A stretch of DNA of 35,564 bases, taken from assembly GCF_011058255.1 (NCBI RefSeq), contig NZ_JAALFH010000063.1, forward strand, positions 1-35,564, given 5' to 3'. The position numbers and the translations under genes are program-made. The stretch comes from Thioalkalivibrio sp. XN8 (GTDB lineage Bacteria; Pseudomonadota; Gammaproteobacteria; Steroidobacterales; XN24). Position 1 is the stretch's first letter. Every line of letters begins with the position of its first letter. Positions 1 to 13,141 of the stretch are shown piece by piece. The notes under the pieces were generated by a model, which had not been told where the DNA came from, ran no database searches, and worked only from the letters and a program-made list of their open reading frames with translations.

Positions 1-339
1 CCGGCCGCACCAGCCGCCGCGGCCGAGCCGGCGGCGCCGGGCATGGAACAGCTGATGGCCGAGGGCCGCAACGTTCACATGACCCACTGCGCGGCCTGCC
101 ACCAGGCCGACGGCAGCGGGCTGCCCGCGGCCGGCTTCCCGGCCCTGAAGAGCCTCCAGGTCAGCCTGGAGGAACACATCCAGACCACCGTGCACGGCCG
201 CACCGGCACCGCCATGGCCGCCTTCGGCCCGCAGCTGAGCAACGAGGAGCTGGCCGCCGTCGTCACCTACCAGCGCAACGCCTTCGGCAACGACACCGGT
301 GACCAGGCCCAGCCGGCCGATATCGCCGCCGCCCGCTGA
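1..339 (+). CDS. coxB: Cytochrome c oxidase subunit II, C-terminal part (5' end outside window)
   Basis: Reading frame 1 is open from the first base, so this is the 3' end of a longer gene. What remains is an Ala/Pro-rich linker followed by a class I cytochrome c domain with the heme-binding motif CAACH and a downstream Met (TAMAAFG) that fits the axial ligand. A cytochrome c domain fused to the end of subunit II is typical of the caa3-like and Pseudomonas aa3-type oxidases, where it passes electrons to the CuA centre. CuA itself would be encoded upstream and is not visible. It lies 23 bases before coxA in the same direction, so the two are surely co-transcribed. Identification rests on the heme motif plus position; confidence is high. 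Confidence 0.9.
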
Positions 340-362
340 GCCGGAATCGAGGAGAGTTCAAG

Positions 363-6440: not shown

Positions 6441-6881
6441 TCAACGCTCCTGTTCGGTGTCACGGCGCGGGAATCGCCGGGTGTCGATCTGGATATCAAC
6501 CAGGTTTCCATTGGCGTCATAGCAGAAATAGTAGGTAACGACGATGATCTCGGTCGCTGTAACGTACGTTTCGGTGCGGGTCTCGACGGTACCACCCCCC
6601 GTCGCGCCACTCGCCATCGACTGCACGCCGTCTTGCCGCACTTCTTGAGCGGACGGCACAAACTTCGCGTCAAGGGGCAAGTCCACCGAAATGACCCTCA
6701 AGATGTCGCCGGCGGCATCCTTGGCCACGACGACATACGATTTCCCAATCCGAACCAGGCTCGCGCAATTGCTCACACAGTCGCTAGTGCGCGCCTGGAG
6801 CGCCTGATCGACAGGAGTCGCGGTGGATTGCGGCGGGAAAGCGGCCAGGAAAAGGCCTGCGAGGATCATCGGAAAGCGCAT
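6441..6881 (-). CDS. Small secreted protein, function unknown
   Basis: A 146-residue protein with a clear signal peptide (MRFPMILAGLFLAAF, likely cleaved after STA or nearby). The mature part has two closely spaced cysteines (DCVSNC), a beta-rich middle, and a C-terminal YYFCYDANGNLVDIQ segment. The ATG is preceded by AAGGAG at 8 bases, so translation is credible. Its base composition is less GC-rich than the oxidase genes. It lies just inside the left hairpin, oriented away from the Fic gene. YDANGNL resembles an RHS/YD repeat motif, but one copy is not enough to assign it. I recognise no family. Confidence 0.65.
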   Translation of the reverse strand: MRFPMILAGLFLAAFPPQSTATPVDQALQARTSDCVSNCASLVRIGKSYVVVAKDAAGDILRVISVDLPLDAKFVPSAQEVRQDGVQSMASGATGGGTVETRTETYVTATEIIVVTYYFCYDANGNLVDIQIDTRRFPRRDTEQER

Positions 6882-6996
6882 GACTGGAACTCCTTATCCA
6901 GATTTACGGGAAACTCAACTTAGTGATCTGCCATTTATGGCGTCAAGAGCCCATATGTAGGGGTCTTTTGGCGGAGGGACGCAAGCCTTGCACCGC

Positions 6997-7096
6997 TGCG
7001 GACAATAGCGCGCTTATTCTCCGCAATTAGTACGGAAAATAGCCTTGTGCCTGCGGAGATTAGCGCGGATAATATCCGCAGTTCGTGCGGAGATAA
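6997..7096. promoter_or_regulatory. Dense operator array of TGCGGANAWTA half-sites upstream of Fic
   Basis: Seven half-sites close to TGCGGAnAWTA occur in 100 bp: direct at 6997-7007, 7031-7041, 7052-7062, 7064-7074 and 7086-7096; inverted at 7014-7025 and 7070-7080. Two pairs form near-identical 16-bp palindromic units (CCGCAATTAGTACGGA and CCGCAGTTCGTGCGGA), and GCGGATAATATCCGC at 7065-7079 is a perfect palindrome apart from its centre. The last site contains the likely ribosome site of the Fic gene, so a bound protein would block translation initiation and transcription. Confidence 0.7.
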
Positions 7097-7100
7097 TGCT

Positions 7101-8204
7101 TTGTACCTCTGGCAGCAGCCTGACTGGCCGGCATTCACCTGGGATCAAGCCGCTTTGGCCACTTTGCTTGGCCAGGTATCCCGCGCCCAGGGGAAGCTCC
7201 TGGGCCGGATGGCAGCTCTCGGCTTCGACCTGCGCAATGAAGCGCACCTGCGGACGCTGACCCAGGACGTCGTCAAGACCAGCGAGATCGAGGGCGAGTA
7301 TCTCGAGCCCGACCAGGTCCGATCGTCCATTGCCCGCCGGCTGGGAATGGACGTCGCCGGGCTGGCTCCAGCCGACCGCAACGTCGATGGCGTCGTCGAC
7401 ATGATGCTGGATGCCACCAGCCGATACGAGGAGCCGCTGACCGTCGAGCGACTCTACGGCTGGCACAGCGCGCTCTTCCCCGGCGGACGGAGCGGCATGC
7501 ACAGGATTTCTGTCGGCGCATGGCGGGACGACGGCACCGGCCCCATGCAGGTCGTGTCCGGCCCGATCGGTCGGCAGAAAGTGCACTACGAAGCGCCGCC
7601 GGCCAGCCGCATTCAGCAAGAGATCGAGTCATTTCTCGAGTGGTTCAACGCCCCCGCCGAAGCCGACCCGATCCTGGAAGCCGGGCTGGCTCACCTGTGG
7701 TTCGTGACCATTCATCCGTTCGACGACGGCAACGGCCGCATCGCCCGCGCTATCGCCGACATGGCACTGTCGCGAGCGGATGAGACTCGGCAACGCTTCT
7801 ACAGCATGTCCGGACAGATTCGTCTGGAGCGCAACGACTACTACGACACCCTCGAACGGACGCAGAAGGGCCCGCTCGATGTGACCCGTTGGCAAACATG
7901 GTTCCTGTCGTGCCTCGAGCGTGCGATCGCCGCCGCCGAGCACACGCTGTCCACAGTGCTGGCGAAGGCCCGCTTCTGGGAGCGATTTGCCACAGCGGCC
8001 CTGAACGAACGCCAGATCAAGGTGCTCAACCGACTGCTGGACGGATTCGAGGGCAAGATGACGACCTCCAAGTGGGCGAAGATCGCGAAATGCTCACAGG
8101 ACACGGCACATCGCGACATCCTTGATCTGATCGACCGCGGCGCTCTGCAAAAGGAACCCGGTGGCGGACGCAGCACCTGCTATTCCCTCGTCGCGGATAA
8201 TTAG
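7101..8204 (+). CDS. Fic-family AMP transferase with DUF4172 N-terminus and winged-helix C-terminus
   Basis: A 367-residue protein starting MYLWQQPDWP, the usual start of the DUF4172-Fic family. TTG 7101 fits this and has GCGGAG 8 bases upstream; GTG 7047 in frame is an alternative but would place the operator array inside the gene. The N-terminal helix carries TSEIEG (60-65), matching the (S/T)xxxE(G/N) self-inhibitory motif of class II Fic proteins. HPFDDGNGRIAR (about 205-216) is the complete catalytic motif. The last 65 residues look like a winged helix (TTSKWAKIAKCSQDTAHRDILDLIDRG, split here: TTSKWAKIAKC then SQDTAHRDIL). It should transfer AMP from ATP to a protein hydroxyl and may bind its own operator. 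No separate antitoxin gene is visible. Confidence 0.92.
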   Translation: MYLWQQPDWPAFTWDQAALATLLGQVSRAQGKLLGRMAALGFDLRNEAHLRTLTQDVVKTSEIEGEYLEPDQVRSSIARRLGMDVAGLAPADRNVDGVVDMMLDATSRYEEPLTVERLYGWHSALFPGGRSGMHRISVGAWRDDGTGPMQVVSGPIGRQKVHYEAPPASRIQQEIESFLEWFNAPAEADPILEAGLAHLWFVTIHPFDDGNGRIARAIADMALSRADETRQRFYSMSGQIRLERNDYYDTLERTQKGPLDVTRWQTWFLSCLERAIAAAEHTLSTVLAKARFWERFATAALNERQIKVLNRLLDGFEGKMTTSKWAKIAKCSQDTAHRDILDLIDRGALQKEPGGGRSTCYSLVADN

Positions 8205-8233: not shown

Positions 8234-9883
8234 GTGCGCAACTACAGCTACGACGCCAACGGCAACCTGACCCAGGTGACCGGTCCCGGGGCCCGGACGG
8301 TGAGCTGGTGGAGTTTCAACAAGCCGCGGCGGATGGAGCGCGACGGCAGCAACTTTGCCGAGTACTGGTACGGTCCGGGCGGCGACCGGGCGATGTTCCG
8401 CCAGTCCGGCCGCAGCAACGGCCAGACGGTGGTGACGCTGTATGGGTCAGCGCTCTACGAGCGCCGCCAGACGGGGATGAGCTTTGCTCATACCTTCTAC
8501 GTCCAGGCCCAGGGCGCCACGGTGGCCACCATCGAGCGCAGCGGCACCAGCACCACCAACACCACCCGCTACTGGCACCGGGATCACCTGGGCTCGGTGG
8601 TGGCGATCACCGACGAGGCCGGCGCCGTCGTCGAGCGGCTGGCCTACGACGCCTGGGGCAAGCGCCGCCCGGCGGACACCTGGCAGACCCCGACCCCCGG
8701 GGTGTTCATCGCCGCGCTCAGCCTGACCCGCGGTTTCACCGGCCACGAGCACCTGGACCAGGTCGGCCTGATCCACATGGGCGGGCGGGTCTACGACCCG
8801 GAGATCGGGCGGTTCCTGTCGCCGGATCCCTTCGTCCAGTTCCCCGCCTCCACCCAGGGGTTCAACCGGTACGCCTACGTCAGCAACAACCCGCTTTCCT
8901 ATACCGACCCGAGCGGGTATTTTGTCAAGAAACTGTTCAAAGCCTTCGGGATCGCGATGAACTTCGTCCCGGGGCTGCAGTTGCCCAACGCCTTCCTGCA
9001 CGGCTTCGTCAGCGGCTTTCTGGTGAGCGGCGGGGATCCGAAGGCGGCGATGCTGGGCGGTATCGGTGCCTCGGTCTTCAACAGTATCGGGGATCAGTTC
9101 TCCGGGGGGAGCTTTGGCAGCACGGCCCATCTGCAGAAGACCCTGGCGCACGGCGTGACGGGCGGGCTGTTGAGTGCGGCCGGCGGGGGCCGCTTCGGGG
9201 ACGGGTTCCTCGGTGCGGCATCGGCCCAGTTAGCCGCCCCGGCCATTGATCAGATTGGCCGGGGCGCTGACGGCGGCATTTCAACGGATGCCGGCGCCCG
9301 GTTCGCCCGCATCATGGCCGCAGCCACCGTCGGCGGCACCGCCTCCACCCTCGGCGGCGGCAAGTTCGCCAACGGGGCCATCACCGCCGGGTTTGCTAGG
9401 GCGTTTAATGATGAGAGGCATATCAAAGAGCAGTCGCGCGTGAAGCGGTTCTTGGATTTCGTCCGCGATGAGGGCTTGGACGTTCTTCGCAGGACTGCTT
9501 CCGTTGTCGGCGGAGGAGGACAGATGCTCCTCGGCGGCGCATTGTGTTCAAGCGCTGTCGGCTGCGCGGCCGGAGCGCCCATCGGTCTACTCGGCGCGAG
9601 CAACATCCAAGAAGGATGGACTGGAGAGCCTGGGTTCGTTCGTGAACTTGCCGTTGCAACGATGTCTGAGCAAGGGGCTAATTTGGTCGTTGACGGCGCA
9701 AACCTAGTTACTTCTGGTTATGGGTTGTTTCGCCATGTGTTACGGCCTGACGCATGGAAACTCTTCCGTCACATACGATCTGATTACGTGCCAGCCTATC
9801 AGACAGCCACAGGTACTGGCCTTTCTGCAGAGATCGGGGCAGCGTCGCTGGGACTGCACCAGAGTATCGAAGGTGCCCGATGA
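8234..9883 (+). CDS. RHS cassette 1: N-terminally truncated RHS core with DUF4225-like C-terminal toxin
   Basis: 549 residues from GTG 8234; the frame is open from 8201, immediately after the Fic stop, with no good ribosome site. It starts inside the YD-repeat region (YSYDANGNL). Then comes the RHS core (YWHRDHLGSVVAITDEAG), the RHS-associated core ([34 protein letters not shown]) shown as two pieces, [12 protein letters not shown] and [17 protein letters not shown], and the PSGYF end. A shared pretoxin follows, to LGGGKFANGA (9350-9379). After this the tip changes. It is hydrophobic (GGGGQMLLGGALCSS) and contains LRPDAWKLFRHI, which I recognise as DUF4225-like. A complete RHS protein would be over 1,000 residues, so the N-terminus has been lost. 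Confidence 0.85.
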   Translation: MRNYSYDANGNLTQVTGPGARTVSWWSFNKPRRMERDGSNFAEYWYGPGGDRAMFRQSGRSNGQTVVTLYGSALYERRQTGMSFAHTFYVQAQGATVATIERSGTSTTNTTRYWHRDHLGSVVAITDEAGAVVERLAYDAWGKRRPADTWQTPTPGVFIAALSLTRGFTGHEHLDQVGLIHMGGRVYDPEIGRFLSPDPFVQFPASTQGFNRYAYVSNNPLSYTDPSGYFVKKLFKAFGIAMNFVPGLQLPNAFLHGFVSGFLVSGGDPKAAMLGGIGASVFNSIGDQFSGGSFGSTAHLQKTLAHGVTGGLLSAAGGGRFGDGFLGAASAQLAAPAIDQIGRGADGGISTDAGARFARIMAAATVGGTASTLGGGKFANGAITAGFARAFNDERHIKEQSRVKRFLDFVRDEGLDVLRRTASVVGGGGQMLLGGALCSSAVGCAAGAPIGLLGASNIQEGWTGEPGFVRELAVATMSEQGANLVVDGANLVTSGYGLFRHVLRPDAWKLFRHIRSDYVPAYQTATGTGLSAEIGAASLGLHQSIEGAR

Positions 9884-10167
9884 TCGAGTATCTGCCTGCC
9901 TTCGGATTCACAGCAGCTTACGCGATCGGGATTCTGTACCTGCGAAGGGCGCTAAGACTCGTTTCGCTGCACCCGAACCGTTCTTTTACGGGGACCTGGA
10001 TGACCTTAATTGGCCTCGGGCTAGCTCCAGCATTGATGGTCGGTTCCGATCTGCTGACGCCGTCGGCCTTGTACGTTCTATTTTCATTTGTTTACTTTTT
10101 CTCGTTCGTGGTTTTTGGCCCGATGCGATTGTTTGCCTTGATCGGTAAGAACAGGAATCAAACTTAG
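9880..10167 (+). CDS. Putative immunity protein 1 (membrane protein)
   Basis: A 95-residue protein whose ATG overlaps the stop of cassette 1 in an ATGA quartet, the arrangement expected for a toxin-immunity pair. It has about three hydrophobic segments (residues 5-20, 42-56, 62-86) and a basic tail (GKNRNQT). Base composition is much less GC-rich than the flanking RHS core, as is usual for exchanged toxin tips. No known immunity family was recognised; the role is inferred from position and topology. Confidence 0.7.
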   Translation: MIEYLPAFGFTAAYAIGILYLRRALRLVSLHPNRSFTGTWMTLIGLGLAPALMVGSDLLTPSALYVLFSFVYFFSFVVFGPMRLFALIGKNRNQT

Positions 10168-10205
10168 ATTCTGGCCATGTAACGGTGTGATCTACTTTCT
10201 CTGGG

Positions 10206-11336
10206 GTGTTCATCGCCGCGATCAGCCTGACGCGGGGATTCACCGGCCACGAGCACCTGGACCAGGTCGGGCTGATCCACATGGGCGGGCGGGTCTACGA
10301 CCCGGAGCTGGGGTGGTTCCTGTCCCCCGACCCCTTCGTCCAGTTCCCCGCCTCCACCCAGGGCTTCAACCGCTACGCCTACGTCGGCAACAACCCGCTT
10401 TCCTATACCGACCCGAGCGGGTATTTTCTGAAGAAGCTGATGAAGGTGGCCGGGATCGGACTCAACTTTGTCCCCGGCTTCCAGGGTTGGAGCACTGCGT
10501 TCCTACGCGGTTTCATAACGGGCTTTCTCGTCAGTGGTGGGGATGCAAAGGCAGCGATGCTGGGCGGGATCGGTGGCGCCGCCTTCGGCAAGCTGGGCAA
10601 GCTGGACTGGGGAGCGGAGAAGATCATCGGACATGGCTTGGTGGGCGGTGCGCTGAGTACGGCCGGCGGAGGGCGGTTCGGGGACGGGTTCCTTGGTGCG
10701 GCAGCGGCGCAAGGGTTCGCCGGGACCGTTGACCGGATCGGTCTTCAGTCTGACGGCCAAGTCTCGACCGACCCGGGGCAGCAATTTGCGCGCGTGGCGG
10801 CGGCGGCCGCCATCGGCGGAACGGTCTCGACCCTCGGCGGCGGCAAGTTCGCCAACGGGGCCAAGACGTTCGGGTTCGTTCGACTGTTCAAGGAAATGCC
10901 CGCCTTCTATCGCCGCGTCGTTAGATACGACCTCGACATCAGCCCTGGCACAGAGCCAGTGGAGAAGGGATTCGAAGGTCGGCCAGTCCAAGGCGCCAAC
11001 AACATTGGCGTGCAACGCCCCTGGAAGTATGACGCCGATGGCGAACGAAGAATCGGGTTCTTCGAGGAGGGTGGCCGACTGTCAAACGTCGCGAATCGGA
11101 TCCCCGGCGTCAATGCTGTGGCGGGAGTACATGACGTGTTTCAGGTATCAATGGGCACTTCAATCTCGCGGGATGTCTTCAATGTGCCCGGCATGGCCGT
11201 AGCGGCAGCGGTTACCTACCCTGGATTCCTTGGCCAACTCTTCAATAGTGCCCCGGCAGACGTTTACCTCCCGGCACAACTCGGTCGAAGGAATGGCAAG
11301 GGCGGATCGACGTGGGTGCCTATTGGTGGATTCTAA
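10206..11336 (+). CDS. RHS cassette 2: orphan RHS core with unknown C-terminal toxin
   Basis: 376 residues. Homology to cassette 1 begins abruptly at about 10203 (GVFIAAISLTRGFTG). No ribosome site precedes GTG 10206, so this is probably a silent, displaced tip rather than an independent gene. It retains the RHS-associated core, PSGYF and the pretoxin to LGGGKFANGA (10833-10862). The variable tip is about 157 residues and contains IPGVNAVAGVHDVFQV and FNVPGMAVAAAVTYPGF. That pattern resembles the ends of other polymorphic toxins and hemagglutinin-like proteins (from memory), activity unknown. Bases 10209-10459 are identical to 11679-11929 in cassette 3. Confidence 0.78.
   Translation: MFIAAISLTRGFTGHEHLDQVGLIHMGGRVYDPELGWFLSPDPFVQFPASTQGFNRYAYVGNNPLSYTDPSGYFLKKLMKVAGIGLNFVPGFQGWSTAFLRGFITGFLVSGGDAKAAMLGGIGGAAFGKLGKLDWGAEKIIGHGLVGGALSTAGGGRFGDGFLGAAAAQGFAGTVDRIGLQSDGQVSTDPGQQFARVAAAAAIGGTVSTLGGGKFANGAKTFGFVRLFKEMPAFYRRVVRYDLDISPGTEPVEKGFEGRPVQGANNIGVQRPWKYDADGERRIGFFEEGGRLSNVANRIPGVNAVAGVHDVFQVSMGTSISRDVFNVPGMAVAAAVTYPGFLGQLFNSAPADVYLPAQLGRRNGKGGSTWVPIGGF
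10209..10459 (+). repeat. 251-bp exact direct repeat, copy 1 (RHS-associated core)
   Basis: Aligned base by base with 11679-11929 (offset 1470), no mismatch was found. The nearest differences are G10208/A11678 and A10460/G11930. It encodes the RHS-associated core to the start of the pretoxin, so recombination here would exchange tips in frame. Confidence 0.9.
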
Positions 11337-11622
11337 AGCGCGCAAAGTCTTTGTCTGCGTGATGGTCCTAGTGGGCTTGGCGGCATGCTCCTGGTTTGTA
11401 TCCTGGGAGGATGCCGCCGAAGGTGGCGTGGGCCGGCACATTCAGTCTTTGATCGAGCTGGACGGGCCACCTACCGCGATAATTCAGCTGCCCAACGGGT
11501 ACAAGGAGTATCGCTACGATTTTCGAAAGATCGATCCATCTTGCGTTCATTTCTGGCTTGTGGATCCGAACGGTATTGTCGTCGATTATCGCTATGAGGG
11601 TCGCTGTCGGCCGATTGGTTAG
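11326..11622 (+). CDS. Putative immunity protein 2 (lipoprotein)
   Basis: 98 residues from GTG 11326, overlapping the end of cassette 2 by 11 bases; ATG 11293 is an in-frame alternative. It begins with a signal peptide ending in a lipobox (VLVGLAAC, then S), so it should be lipidated and face the periplasm. The mature part is short and beta-like (LPNGYKEYRYDF, HFWLVDPNGIVVDYRY) with two Cys. Following a toxin tip directly, it is the best immunity candidate. Its location implies that the cassette 2 toxin acts in the periplasm or at the inner membrane. Confidence 0.68.
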   Translation: MDSKARKVFVCVMVLVGLAACSWFVSWEDAAEGGVGRHIQSLIELDGPPTAIIQLPNGYKEYRYDFRKIDPSCVHFWLVDPNGIVVDYRYEGRCRPIG

Positions 11623-11678
11623 GAGTTCCGAGCAAGCGCCGCCCGGCGGCTACCTGGCAGACCCCCACGCCCGGGGTA

Positions 11679-11929
11679 TTCATCGCCGCGATCAGCCTGA
11701 CGCGGGGATTCACCGGCCACGAGCACCTGGACCAGGTCGGGCTGATCCACATGGGCGGGCGGGTCTACGACCCGGAGCTGGGGTGGTTCCTGTCCCCCGA
11801 CCCCTTCGTCCAGTTCCCCGCCTCCACCCAGGGCTTCAACCGCTACGCCTACGTCGGCAACAACCCGCTTTCCTATACCGACCCGAGCGGGTATTTTCTG
11901 AAGAAGCTGATGAAGGTGGCCGGGATCGG
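11679..11929 (+). repeat. 251-bp exact direct repeat, copy 2 (RHS-associated core)
   Basis: Identical to 10209-10459, in the same orientation, 1470 bp downstream. Related but diverged copies of the same segment lie in cassette 1 and in the remnant at 13163. Confidence 0.9.
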
Positions 11930-12854
11930 GATGAACTTCATCCCGGGCTGGACGCTGATGAACAACGCCTTCATCCATGGCTTTGTCAGCGGCTTTCTGG
12001 CCAGCGAGGGAGACGTCAAGGCCGGCATGATGGGGATGATGAGTGCGGGTATTGCGGGGGAGATCGGGAAGATCAACGACCTGAGCAATTTCTCGCGTTC
12101 GGCCCTGCACGGGATCACCCAGGGGGCGATCTCCGCGGCCGGCGGCGGGCGTTTCGGGGACGGGGCGCTGGGGGCCTTTGCCGGGAGTTATTTCAGTTTC
12201 ATTCCCGAGGCGGTGGCAGGGCCTTACGGCAGCGGCGGGGAGTGGGCGAAGATCGGGCGGATGACGGCGGCGGCTGTGGTCGGCGGCACTGCCTCGGCCC
12301 TTGGCGGTGGCAAGTTCGCTAACGGGGCCTGGTCAGCCGCGTTCGTCAGTCGGTTTAATCATGATTCGTCTGGTGCCAGACGGCGTGCGGCGCGTGAAGC
12401 CAGAGCTGCTATTGGTTCCGAAGAGGCAGTCGGATTGGCCCCTGGTGCCTATCCCATCATCGTGGATGCCGTATCCGCTTCGTTAGGCCCTATCACTGTC
12501 GAATCCGGAGACATATGGCTTGTCGACAAACGTAACGATCGCGTTTTGCTCTTCAGGTATCACTCGATCGGGGCTGGCGTCGGACTTGGAGCATCTACGT
12601 CTCGCCATTACGGAGTGTTGGGTCTGGAATCGGCTGCAGATGTTACCGGCATCACGGTGGCCGTAGGCGTGGATGGTGTCCCTGGTGTAGGTGGTAGCGG
12701 ATCCTTCTTCAGCGGTGTGCCAGCGTATTCGCCGGGGGCGGCTGGCGGCTTCGCCGTCGGGCTACACGCAGGCTTTTCATTCTCTGCTGGACATGTCCGT
12801 TTTCTGCGGTCCTTCCCAACGAACAGCGCGCCCGTCATTGGATGGAAACCATGA
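11751..12854 (+). CDS. RHS cassette 3: orphan RHS core with glycine-rich C-terminal toxin
   Basis: The first ATG in frame is 11751 (367 residues), but homology to cassette 1 extends upstream to about 11631 (SKRRPAATWQTPTPGVF), right after immunity gene 2. The cassette therefore has no native start. The RHS-associated core, PSGYF, a pretoxin more diverged than in cassettes 1 and 2, and LGGGKFANGA (12300-12329) are present. The tip is about 174 residues: a charged Arg/Ala helix, then a Gly/Ser/Val-rich, beta-like stretch (GAGVGLGASTSRHYGVLG, GVPGVGGSGSFFSGVP). I recognise no enzyme motif. A membrane-inserting or pore-forming role is only a suggestion. Confidence 0.76.
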   Translation: MGGRVYDPELGWFLSPDPFVQFPASTQGFNRYAYVGNNPLSYTDPSGYFLKKLMKVAGIGMNFIPGWTLMNNAFIHGFVSGFLASEGDVKAGMMGMMSAGIAGEIGKINDLSNFSRSALHGITQGAISAAGGGRFGDGALGAFAGSYFSFIPEAVAGPYGSGGEWAKIGRMTAAAVVGGTASALGGGKFANGAWSAAFVSRFNHDSSGARRRAAREARAAIGSEEAVGLAPGAYPIIVDAVSASLGPITVESGDIWLVDKRNDRVLLFRYHSIGAGVGLGASTSRHYGVLGLESAADVTGITVAVGVDGVPGVGGSGSFFSGVPAYSPGAAGGFAVGLHAGFSFSAGHVRFLRSFPTNSAPVIGWKP

Positions 12855-13141
12855 TGTCTGTCTTCGAGTGGGCCCTCCTAGGCGTGTTCGCACTGATGTT
12901 CGCCACTGGGTTGGCTGGGCAGTGTTTACTCATTAGGAGAACTGATTGGGCCAGCTTTTCAAGCGAGAGATCGAAGCTACTTTATCTGGCTGGGGGATTC
13001 TATTCTGTCCCTCTATTGAGGTCACACGTGCCCACGCCGCATCGGTCGAGGCTCATGGTGATCCGCAGGACGTTCCTCGGATTCCTTATGCTGGCGGTCT
13101 TGCTTGTGGTTGGGAGTTTTGTTTTCCAGGCGTTCTTGTAA
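12851..13141 (+). CDS. Putative immunity protein 3 (membrane protein)
   Basis: 96 residues from ATG 12851, which overlaps the cassette 3 stop as ATGA; ATG 12842 would add three residues. Hydrophobic segments lie at about residues 5-27 and 73-95, with a weaker one in the middle and basic residues between (HRSRLMVIRR). It has the same size, topology and overlap style as immunity protein 1 but no obvious sequence similarity to it. Function inferred from position. Confidence 0.7.
   Translation: MMSVFEWALLGVFALMFATGLAGQCLLIRRTDWASFSSERSKLLYLAGGFYSVPLLRSHVPTPHRSRLMVIRRTFLGFLMLAVLLVVGSFVFQAFL

Follow-up and report, generated by a model that had tools for sequence, protein, structure and literature searches.

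The fic gene in the 35,564-nucleotide contig of Thioalkalivibrio sp. XN8 analyzed here (the window) is preceded by six copies of a half-site, TGCGGAGAWTA, that enclose its promoter-like sequences, and we consider it very probable, on the strength of sequence comparisons, that this array is the operator of fic's own promoter, that the Fic protein recognizes it through its C-terminal winged helix, and that fic is autorepressed through it. The half-sites follow one another in the orientation + - + + - + and lie at 6997-7007 (O1, TGCGGACAATA), 7015-7025 (O2, TGCGGAGAATA), 7031-7041 (O3, TACGGAAAATA), 7052-7062 (O4, TGCGGAGATTA), 7070-7080 (O5, TGCGGATATTA) and 7086-7096 (O6, TGCGGAGATAA), with successive centre-to-centre distances of 22, 12, 21, 22 and 12 bp. 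The initial annotation had counted seven copies of TGCGGANAWTA between 6997 and 7096, and a motif count in the window does return four exact and three one-mismatch copies there; six belong to the layout that homologues share, whereas the seventh (CGCGGATAATA, 7064-7074, plus strand), which overlaps both O5 and the -10 element, is probably fortuitous, because the G that it requires is present at that column in 3% of 130 aligned loci. The 15-bp palindrome GCGGATAATATCCGC that had been described is present at 7065-7079, but it depends on this seventh copy. The two inverted units, CCGCAATTAGTACGGA at 7021-7036 and CCGCAGTTCGTGCGGA at 7076-7091, are both as described, and O6 does contain the Shine-Dalgarno-like sequence ascribed to it, GGAG (7089-7092), 8 nt ahead of the TTG start codon at 7101.

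The clustering of half-sites in this 100-bp interval is genuine and far beyond chance. Seven of the 82 sites with at most one mismatch in the 3.11-Mb genome fall within it, and the score of the window's spaced array was 56.7, against a maximum of 17.3 among 1,200 dinucleotide shuffles of homologue upstream regions. Across the whole window the motif (at most two mismatches) was not enriched (29 occurrences against 22.8 expected, with 15 of 100 shuffles reaching 29), so that the signal is the clustering itself. No array was seen by eye in three other stretches of the same genome around single sites (C27). A general scan also called a terminator-like hairpin over O1, at 6994-7010 (one found, 0.2 expected), which is probably the repeats themselves.

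The predicted operator repeats overlap fic's own putative promoter. A -35-like TTGTGC (7045-7050) lies between O3 and O4 and is followed, after a 17-bp spacer that contains O4, by a -10-like GATAAT (7068-7073) that overlaps the AT-rich tail of O5; the pair is sigma-70-like, reads on the plus strand toward fic, and is enclosed by the six half-sites. A set of 130 loci, selected as those with Asp334 (see below) and an array with a convergent pair near the start codon, was aligned on that pair. The TTG of the -35 element was conserved in 85, 79 and 71% of them, letter by letter, and the ATAAT of the -10 element in 95, 75, 91, 74 and 99%. The best -35/-10 pair had a 17-bp spacer at one place in 69/130, with a spacer of 16 bp in 22 and of 18 bp in 14; the promoter elements occupy fixed positions within the array, with O4 filling the spacer and the -10 element overlapping the O5 tail. 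The centre of O6 lay 8 to 13 nt from the start codon in 124 of the 130. Since the -35 element falls outside the half-sites, its conservation is no by-product of the operator. A general promoter scan at a stricter threshold reported no promoter in the window.

The gene itself (7101-8204, plus strand) encodes 367 amino acids comprising a DUF4172 domain, a Fic domain and a winged helix, the first two recognized by Pfam at 120.7 and 62.5 bits against gathering cut-offs of 25 and 24. In close homologues such as L001 and L002, ATG stands where the window gene has TTG. The protein carries a class II inhibitory motif, TSEIEG (residues 60-65, 7278-7295), and a catalytic motif, HPFDDGNGR (residues 205-213, 7713-7739); among 240 homologues, [ST]xxxE[GN] was found within residues 51-80 in 237, and HPFx[DE]GNG[RK] in 229. 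The winged-helix-like C-terminus noted in the initial annotation was borne out by an AlphaFold2 model (mean pLDDT, 92.2), in which a predicted winged helix spans about residues 303-363 (8007-8189) with helices at 303-313, 322-329 and 333-345 plus strands, the last helix being the predicted recognition helix, which begins at Gln333. A structure of CbFic2 (PDB 8CIL) was the first match in both the sequence search and the fold search (two chains, TM score of 0.84 to 0.91, 44 to 46% identity), with SoFic and CccR as more distant fold matches.

CbFic2 and the window protein have the same domain order, DUF4172-Fic-winged helix, and the same kinds of inhibitory and catalytic motifs. According to the available text of its description, CbFic2 binds DNA, largely through the helix-turn-helix (HTH), dimerises on it and changes its activity, for which the authors propose deAMPylation (PMC10628234). 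As far as that text goes, random DNA was used and the specific binding sequence was left to future studies, whereas the window fic family has a candidate specific operator. CccR of Yersinia pseudotuberculosis (7XUX) is a Fic toxin that, in the published portions available, represses its own promoter through a C-terminal HTH and inverted repeats near -35 and -10 (PMC9755527). The window protein is likewise a Fic enzyme with a C-terminal HTH and predicted operator repeats at its own promoter, but the two share 19% identity in the fold match, and the CccR operator is given there as one pair, AGATAATCAT-N26-ATGATAATCT, in contrast to six TGCGGAGAWTA half-sites with spacings of 22 and 12. A comparison of Fic-HTH fusions with Phd by Kinch et al. 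led, in the accessible part of their paper, to the suggestion that fic may be regulated by the HTH (PMC2686095). Phd-Doc is a self-repressing toxin unit of the Fido fold, as is proposed here for fic, but unlike Phd-Doc, a single protein would serve as both enzyme and repressor. No antitoxin was recognized beside fic in the window: neither Pfam nor NCBIfam gave a match for the upstream open reading frame (ORF; 6441-6881, minus strand), and the downstream ORF is Rhs. The window protein also matched the PADLOC model for the SoFic defence system (residues 11-362, E = 1.4e-44), but with the NCBIfam SoFic equivalog model it scored 47.3 bits, below the cut-off of 550. For Shewanella SoFic, DNA binding is described in the text available as not demonstrated (PMC10628234); the window protein has a predicted winged helix. 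A class II Fic system has been reported, in the excerpt available, to be active against coliphage T5 (PMC11514479). Fic autorepression is thus already known from CccR, with another operator, and what is new is a candidate operator for the CbFic2-type family; in the open-licence literature searched, we recognized no description of it.

For the window, we infer binding, repression, dimer stoichiometry and cooperativity as follows. Fic would bind the half-sites via its C-terminal winged helix, probably in the form of dimers joined through DUF4172, and bound Fic would cover the promoter spacer, the -10 element and the ribosome-binding site, switching off its own synthesis. The multiple sites would make this feedback cooperative and steep, and it would keep a potentially harmful AMP-transferase at a low level.

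It is possible, though doubtful, that the array acts mainly as an allosteric ligand and titration sink, such that bound Fic dimerises into a deAMPylating or inactive form and repression is secondary. The inhibitory motif is kept in nearly all homologues, as given above, and six sites would exceed the needs of simple repression, both of which agree with such a role. However, the promoter elements sit at fixed places in the array, as repression predicts, one array per chromosome would hold few molecules, and the CbFic2 effect was, in the text available, obtained with random DNA (PMC10628234). The initial annotation also suggested that AMPylation or the inhibitory helix might control the repression; the published effects of DNA on the dimerisation and activity of CbFic2 make a link of this kind plausible. 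A bolder version, which we regard as speculative and rather unlikely, is that fic is a single-gene toxin for which the promoter DNA of fic itself serves as the antidote: binding to the array would keep Fic in a deAMPylating or inactive dimeric state and at the same time repress fic, and any event that removed Fic from the array, such as phage takeover, DNA damage or loss of the locus, would free monomers that AMPylate targets.

Activators can bind upstream of a -35 element, and O1 to O3 lie there, so Fic might act as an activator when bound to this upstream half, or both activate and repress at different levels. We consider this improbable, given that O4 to O6 lie over the spacer, the -10 element and the ribosome-binding site and that CccR, the tested relative, is a repressor in the portions available (PMC9755527).

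If the array is an operator for autorepression by Fic, it should accompany the gene in homologues, and this was found. Homologues were taken from GTDB contigs (the best 80 of 582 confirmed stretches), IMG/VR contigs, whole genomes and named plasmids; loci that had come from motif searches, and those of the genome to which the window belongs, were excluded at the outset, and near-identical but non-identical loci were kept. From the 334 loci that passed a start filter we dropped 91 duplicate proteins, two with less than 120 bp upstream and one with a short or broken frame, which left 240 distinct DUF4172-Fic proteins, with the window counted once. The array scan left the four core letters free, favoured set outer letters and allowed only set spacings, so that its spacing counts are no free measurement; its threshold of 18 was chosen after a first run, in which the maximum among mononucleotide shuffles was 17.5 and 4/1,055 shuffles exceeded the threshold of 14 then in use. 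At or above 50% identity, 175 of 179 homologues, the window included, carried an array (9/9 at 70% or more, again with the window, 150/154 at 60 to 70% and 16/16 at 50 to 60%), as did 25/28 at 40 to 50% and 3/33 at 30 to 40%. None of 1,200 dinucleotide shuffles of homologue upstream regions exceeded the threshold. The array of the Cupriavidus metallidurans CH34 homologue (L388), for comparison, scored 53.8. The four homologues above 50% identity that fell under it were L048, a locus titled Armatimonadetes, and L069, L078 and L150.

The spacing was also visible without a motif prior. In the first 80 upstream regions (window included), convergent complementary 5-mer pairs with a 17-nt gap occurred in 69, compared with 12.2 in shuffles and 16/74 in regions further upstream, and pairs with a 7-nt gap occurred in 46, compared with 12.4 and 23/74, respectively. 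Arrays were present in records titled Gammaproteobacteria, Rhodobacteraceae, Acidobacteria, Planctomycetota, Bacteroidota, Nitrospira, Verrucomicrobia, Omnitrophota and Rokubacteria, several of them metagenome bins whose taxon labels can be wrong, and on a Treponema plasmid too.

Below 40% identity, 9-nt arms whose starts were 20 nt apart were found in 17/33 loci, compared with 0.8 in shuffles, with the half-site TGAGYTATA or, where the helix residues are different, sequences such as TGATTAATA and TGTCAGTA. At such loci, for example L183, L188, L326 and L329, the inverted repeats before fic differ by subgroup, and the last arm often overlaps the ATG. The inverted repeats of these distant homologues seem to follow the helix residues. 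Taking all subgroups together, the half-sites TGCGGA, TGCGTA, TG(A/C)NGA, TGAGCC, TGAGYTATA and TGATTAATA occur alongside changed helix residues.

We also approached the association from the opposite direction, searching 398 genomes of the phylum for the convergent pair with an N7 spacer and at most one mismatch. The pair was found in 33 genomes, and by coordinates 23 of these, the window's included, have it directly upstream of fic; in one of the 23 (G380), fic is split between two frames. The reversed pattern was found in 2/398 genomes and a wrong-spacer control (N5) in 5/398, none at a listed fic. Mismatch-free matches occurred in 16 genomes, 15 of them at fic and the remaining one in G249, and the genome containing the window has the paired pattern (at most one mismatch) nowhere but in the array at 6997-7096.

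In the other ten matching genomes, no intact or listed fic follows the pair. Seven of these gave one match each, with one mismatch, and the surrounding 3 kb or less contained no fic. G041 carries a relic (L365, 1501-1622), in which one operator pair runs directly into the last 33 codons of fic, and G249 an orphan array (L349, 1501-1563), in which 12 bp separate two convergent pairs and the first pair has no mismatch; by eye, the genes on either side look flagellar. G249 is not among the genomes with a listed fic match, and its array is possibly the scar of a lost fic. In G321 the gene near the pair is another kind of fic (26% identity). At L343, one operator-like pair with one mismatch is close to another Fic-family gene. 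A search of viral contigs with the divergent TGCGTA pair alone returned eight stretches, none with a fic detectable by tblastn at an E value of 1e-3; a single pair is therefore not specific enough.

The letters of the half-site were associated with residues of the predicted recognition helix, in particular its first two, Gln333 and Asp334 (8097-8102, plus strand), which were associated with half-site positions 5 and 3, respectively. In the final set, Asp334 went with C at position 3 in 170/170 loci and 682/695 well-matching sites, and other residues at 334 with A at position 3 in 31/33 loci and 118/133 sites. The two exceptions, L369 and L395, have Ala334, mixed sites and a C consensus at position 3; they came from a group of four loci with SQATA helices (L368, L369, L384 and L395) that were found after the rule had been noted. 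Among 367 protein columns, 334 was the best for position 3, with 0 errors in 180 loci (earlier set) and 2 in 203 (final set), although the columns of V95 and K319 trailed it by just one error, as the signal is largely a difference among clades. For position 5 the best column was 333, with 1 error in 153. T occurs at this position in three of the 153 loci at or above 50% identity, two with His333 and one, L134 (TGCGT sites), with Gln333 rather than His. Position 6 was weakly associated with protein columns (at least 37 errors of 153).

The tree and the first column scan used the earlier 180-locus set, and the tree was built without the C-terminal domain. On it, at least two changes are seen for position 3 and likewise for residue 334, with agreement in 2/2 independent pairs; for position 5 there are three changes and for residue 333 two changes to His, with agreement in 2/3 pairs. 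Neither association can reach significance, because independent changes are few. The half-site letters, on evidence that is statistically non-independent, point to the predicted recognition helix as the reader. Together with the conservation of the array, this association lends indirect support to the autorepression proposed in the initial annotation.

Many promoters are under the control of unlinked regulators, and Fic as the binder is itself deduced, which leaves some room for an array read by another host regulator. We find this very improbable, because the layout is common to records of many phyla and to plasmids, mismatch-free pairs stand at fic in all but one of the 16 genomes that have them, and the half-site letters vary in step with the helix of Fic itself.

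DNA-binding tails are common among Fic proteins, and the specific DNA target of the DUF4172 type was left open in the available text of PMC10628234. The predicted operator, its layout and the two candidate reading residues would make self-repression, an enzyme switch operated by specific DNA, and prediction of the half-site from the helix all testable. The array is also a sequence tag with which such fic genes and their relics can be found. On the more speculative view given above, the DUF4172-Fic family, in which half-sites differ between subgroups along with helix residues, would also supply natural variants for deciphering a recognition code of winged helices.

No homologue was detected in a phage collection at an E value of 1e-20, and at 1e-40 there were 415 plasmid records with a homologue, among them 58 from Pantoea, 57 from Phaeobacter and 52 from Agrobacterium. 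From 120 listed plasmid matches, we took 12 loci, picked for spread, and viewed 11 annotated regions. The notion that the array marks one end of a mobile unit and is a recombinase binding site, which could draw on these plasmid records, on the differing fic neighbours among the 11 regions and on one weak half-site in the last fic codons, is highly improbable and was set aside, given that the window's array is on one side only, that recombinase or transposase genes occur near fic in some of the 11 regions in no constant place, and that the promoter embedding and the helix association would be left unexplained. The weak half-site itself (CGCGGATAATT, 8192-8202) has two mismatches. Downstream of fic, Rhs core fragments repeat across 8234-13100, with a 25-amino-acid Rhs peptide that is found in two ORFs (at 8234 and 10206) and whose end recurs in a third (at 11751), an arrangement known from Rhs toxin-tip cassettes.
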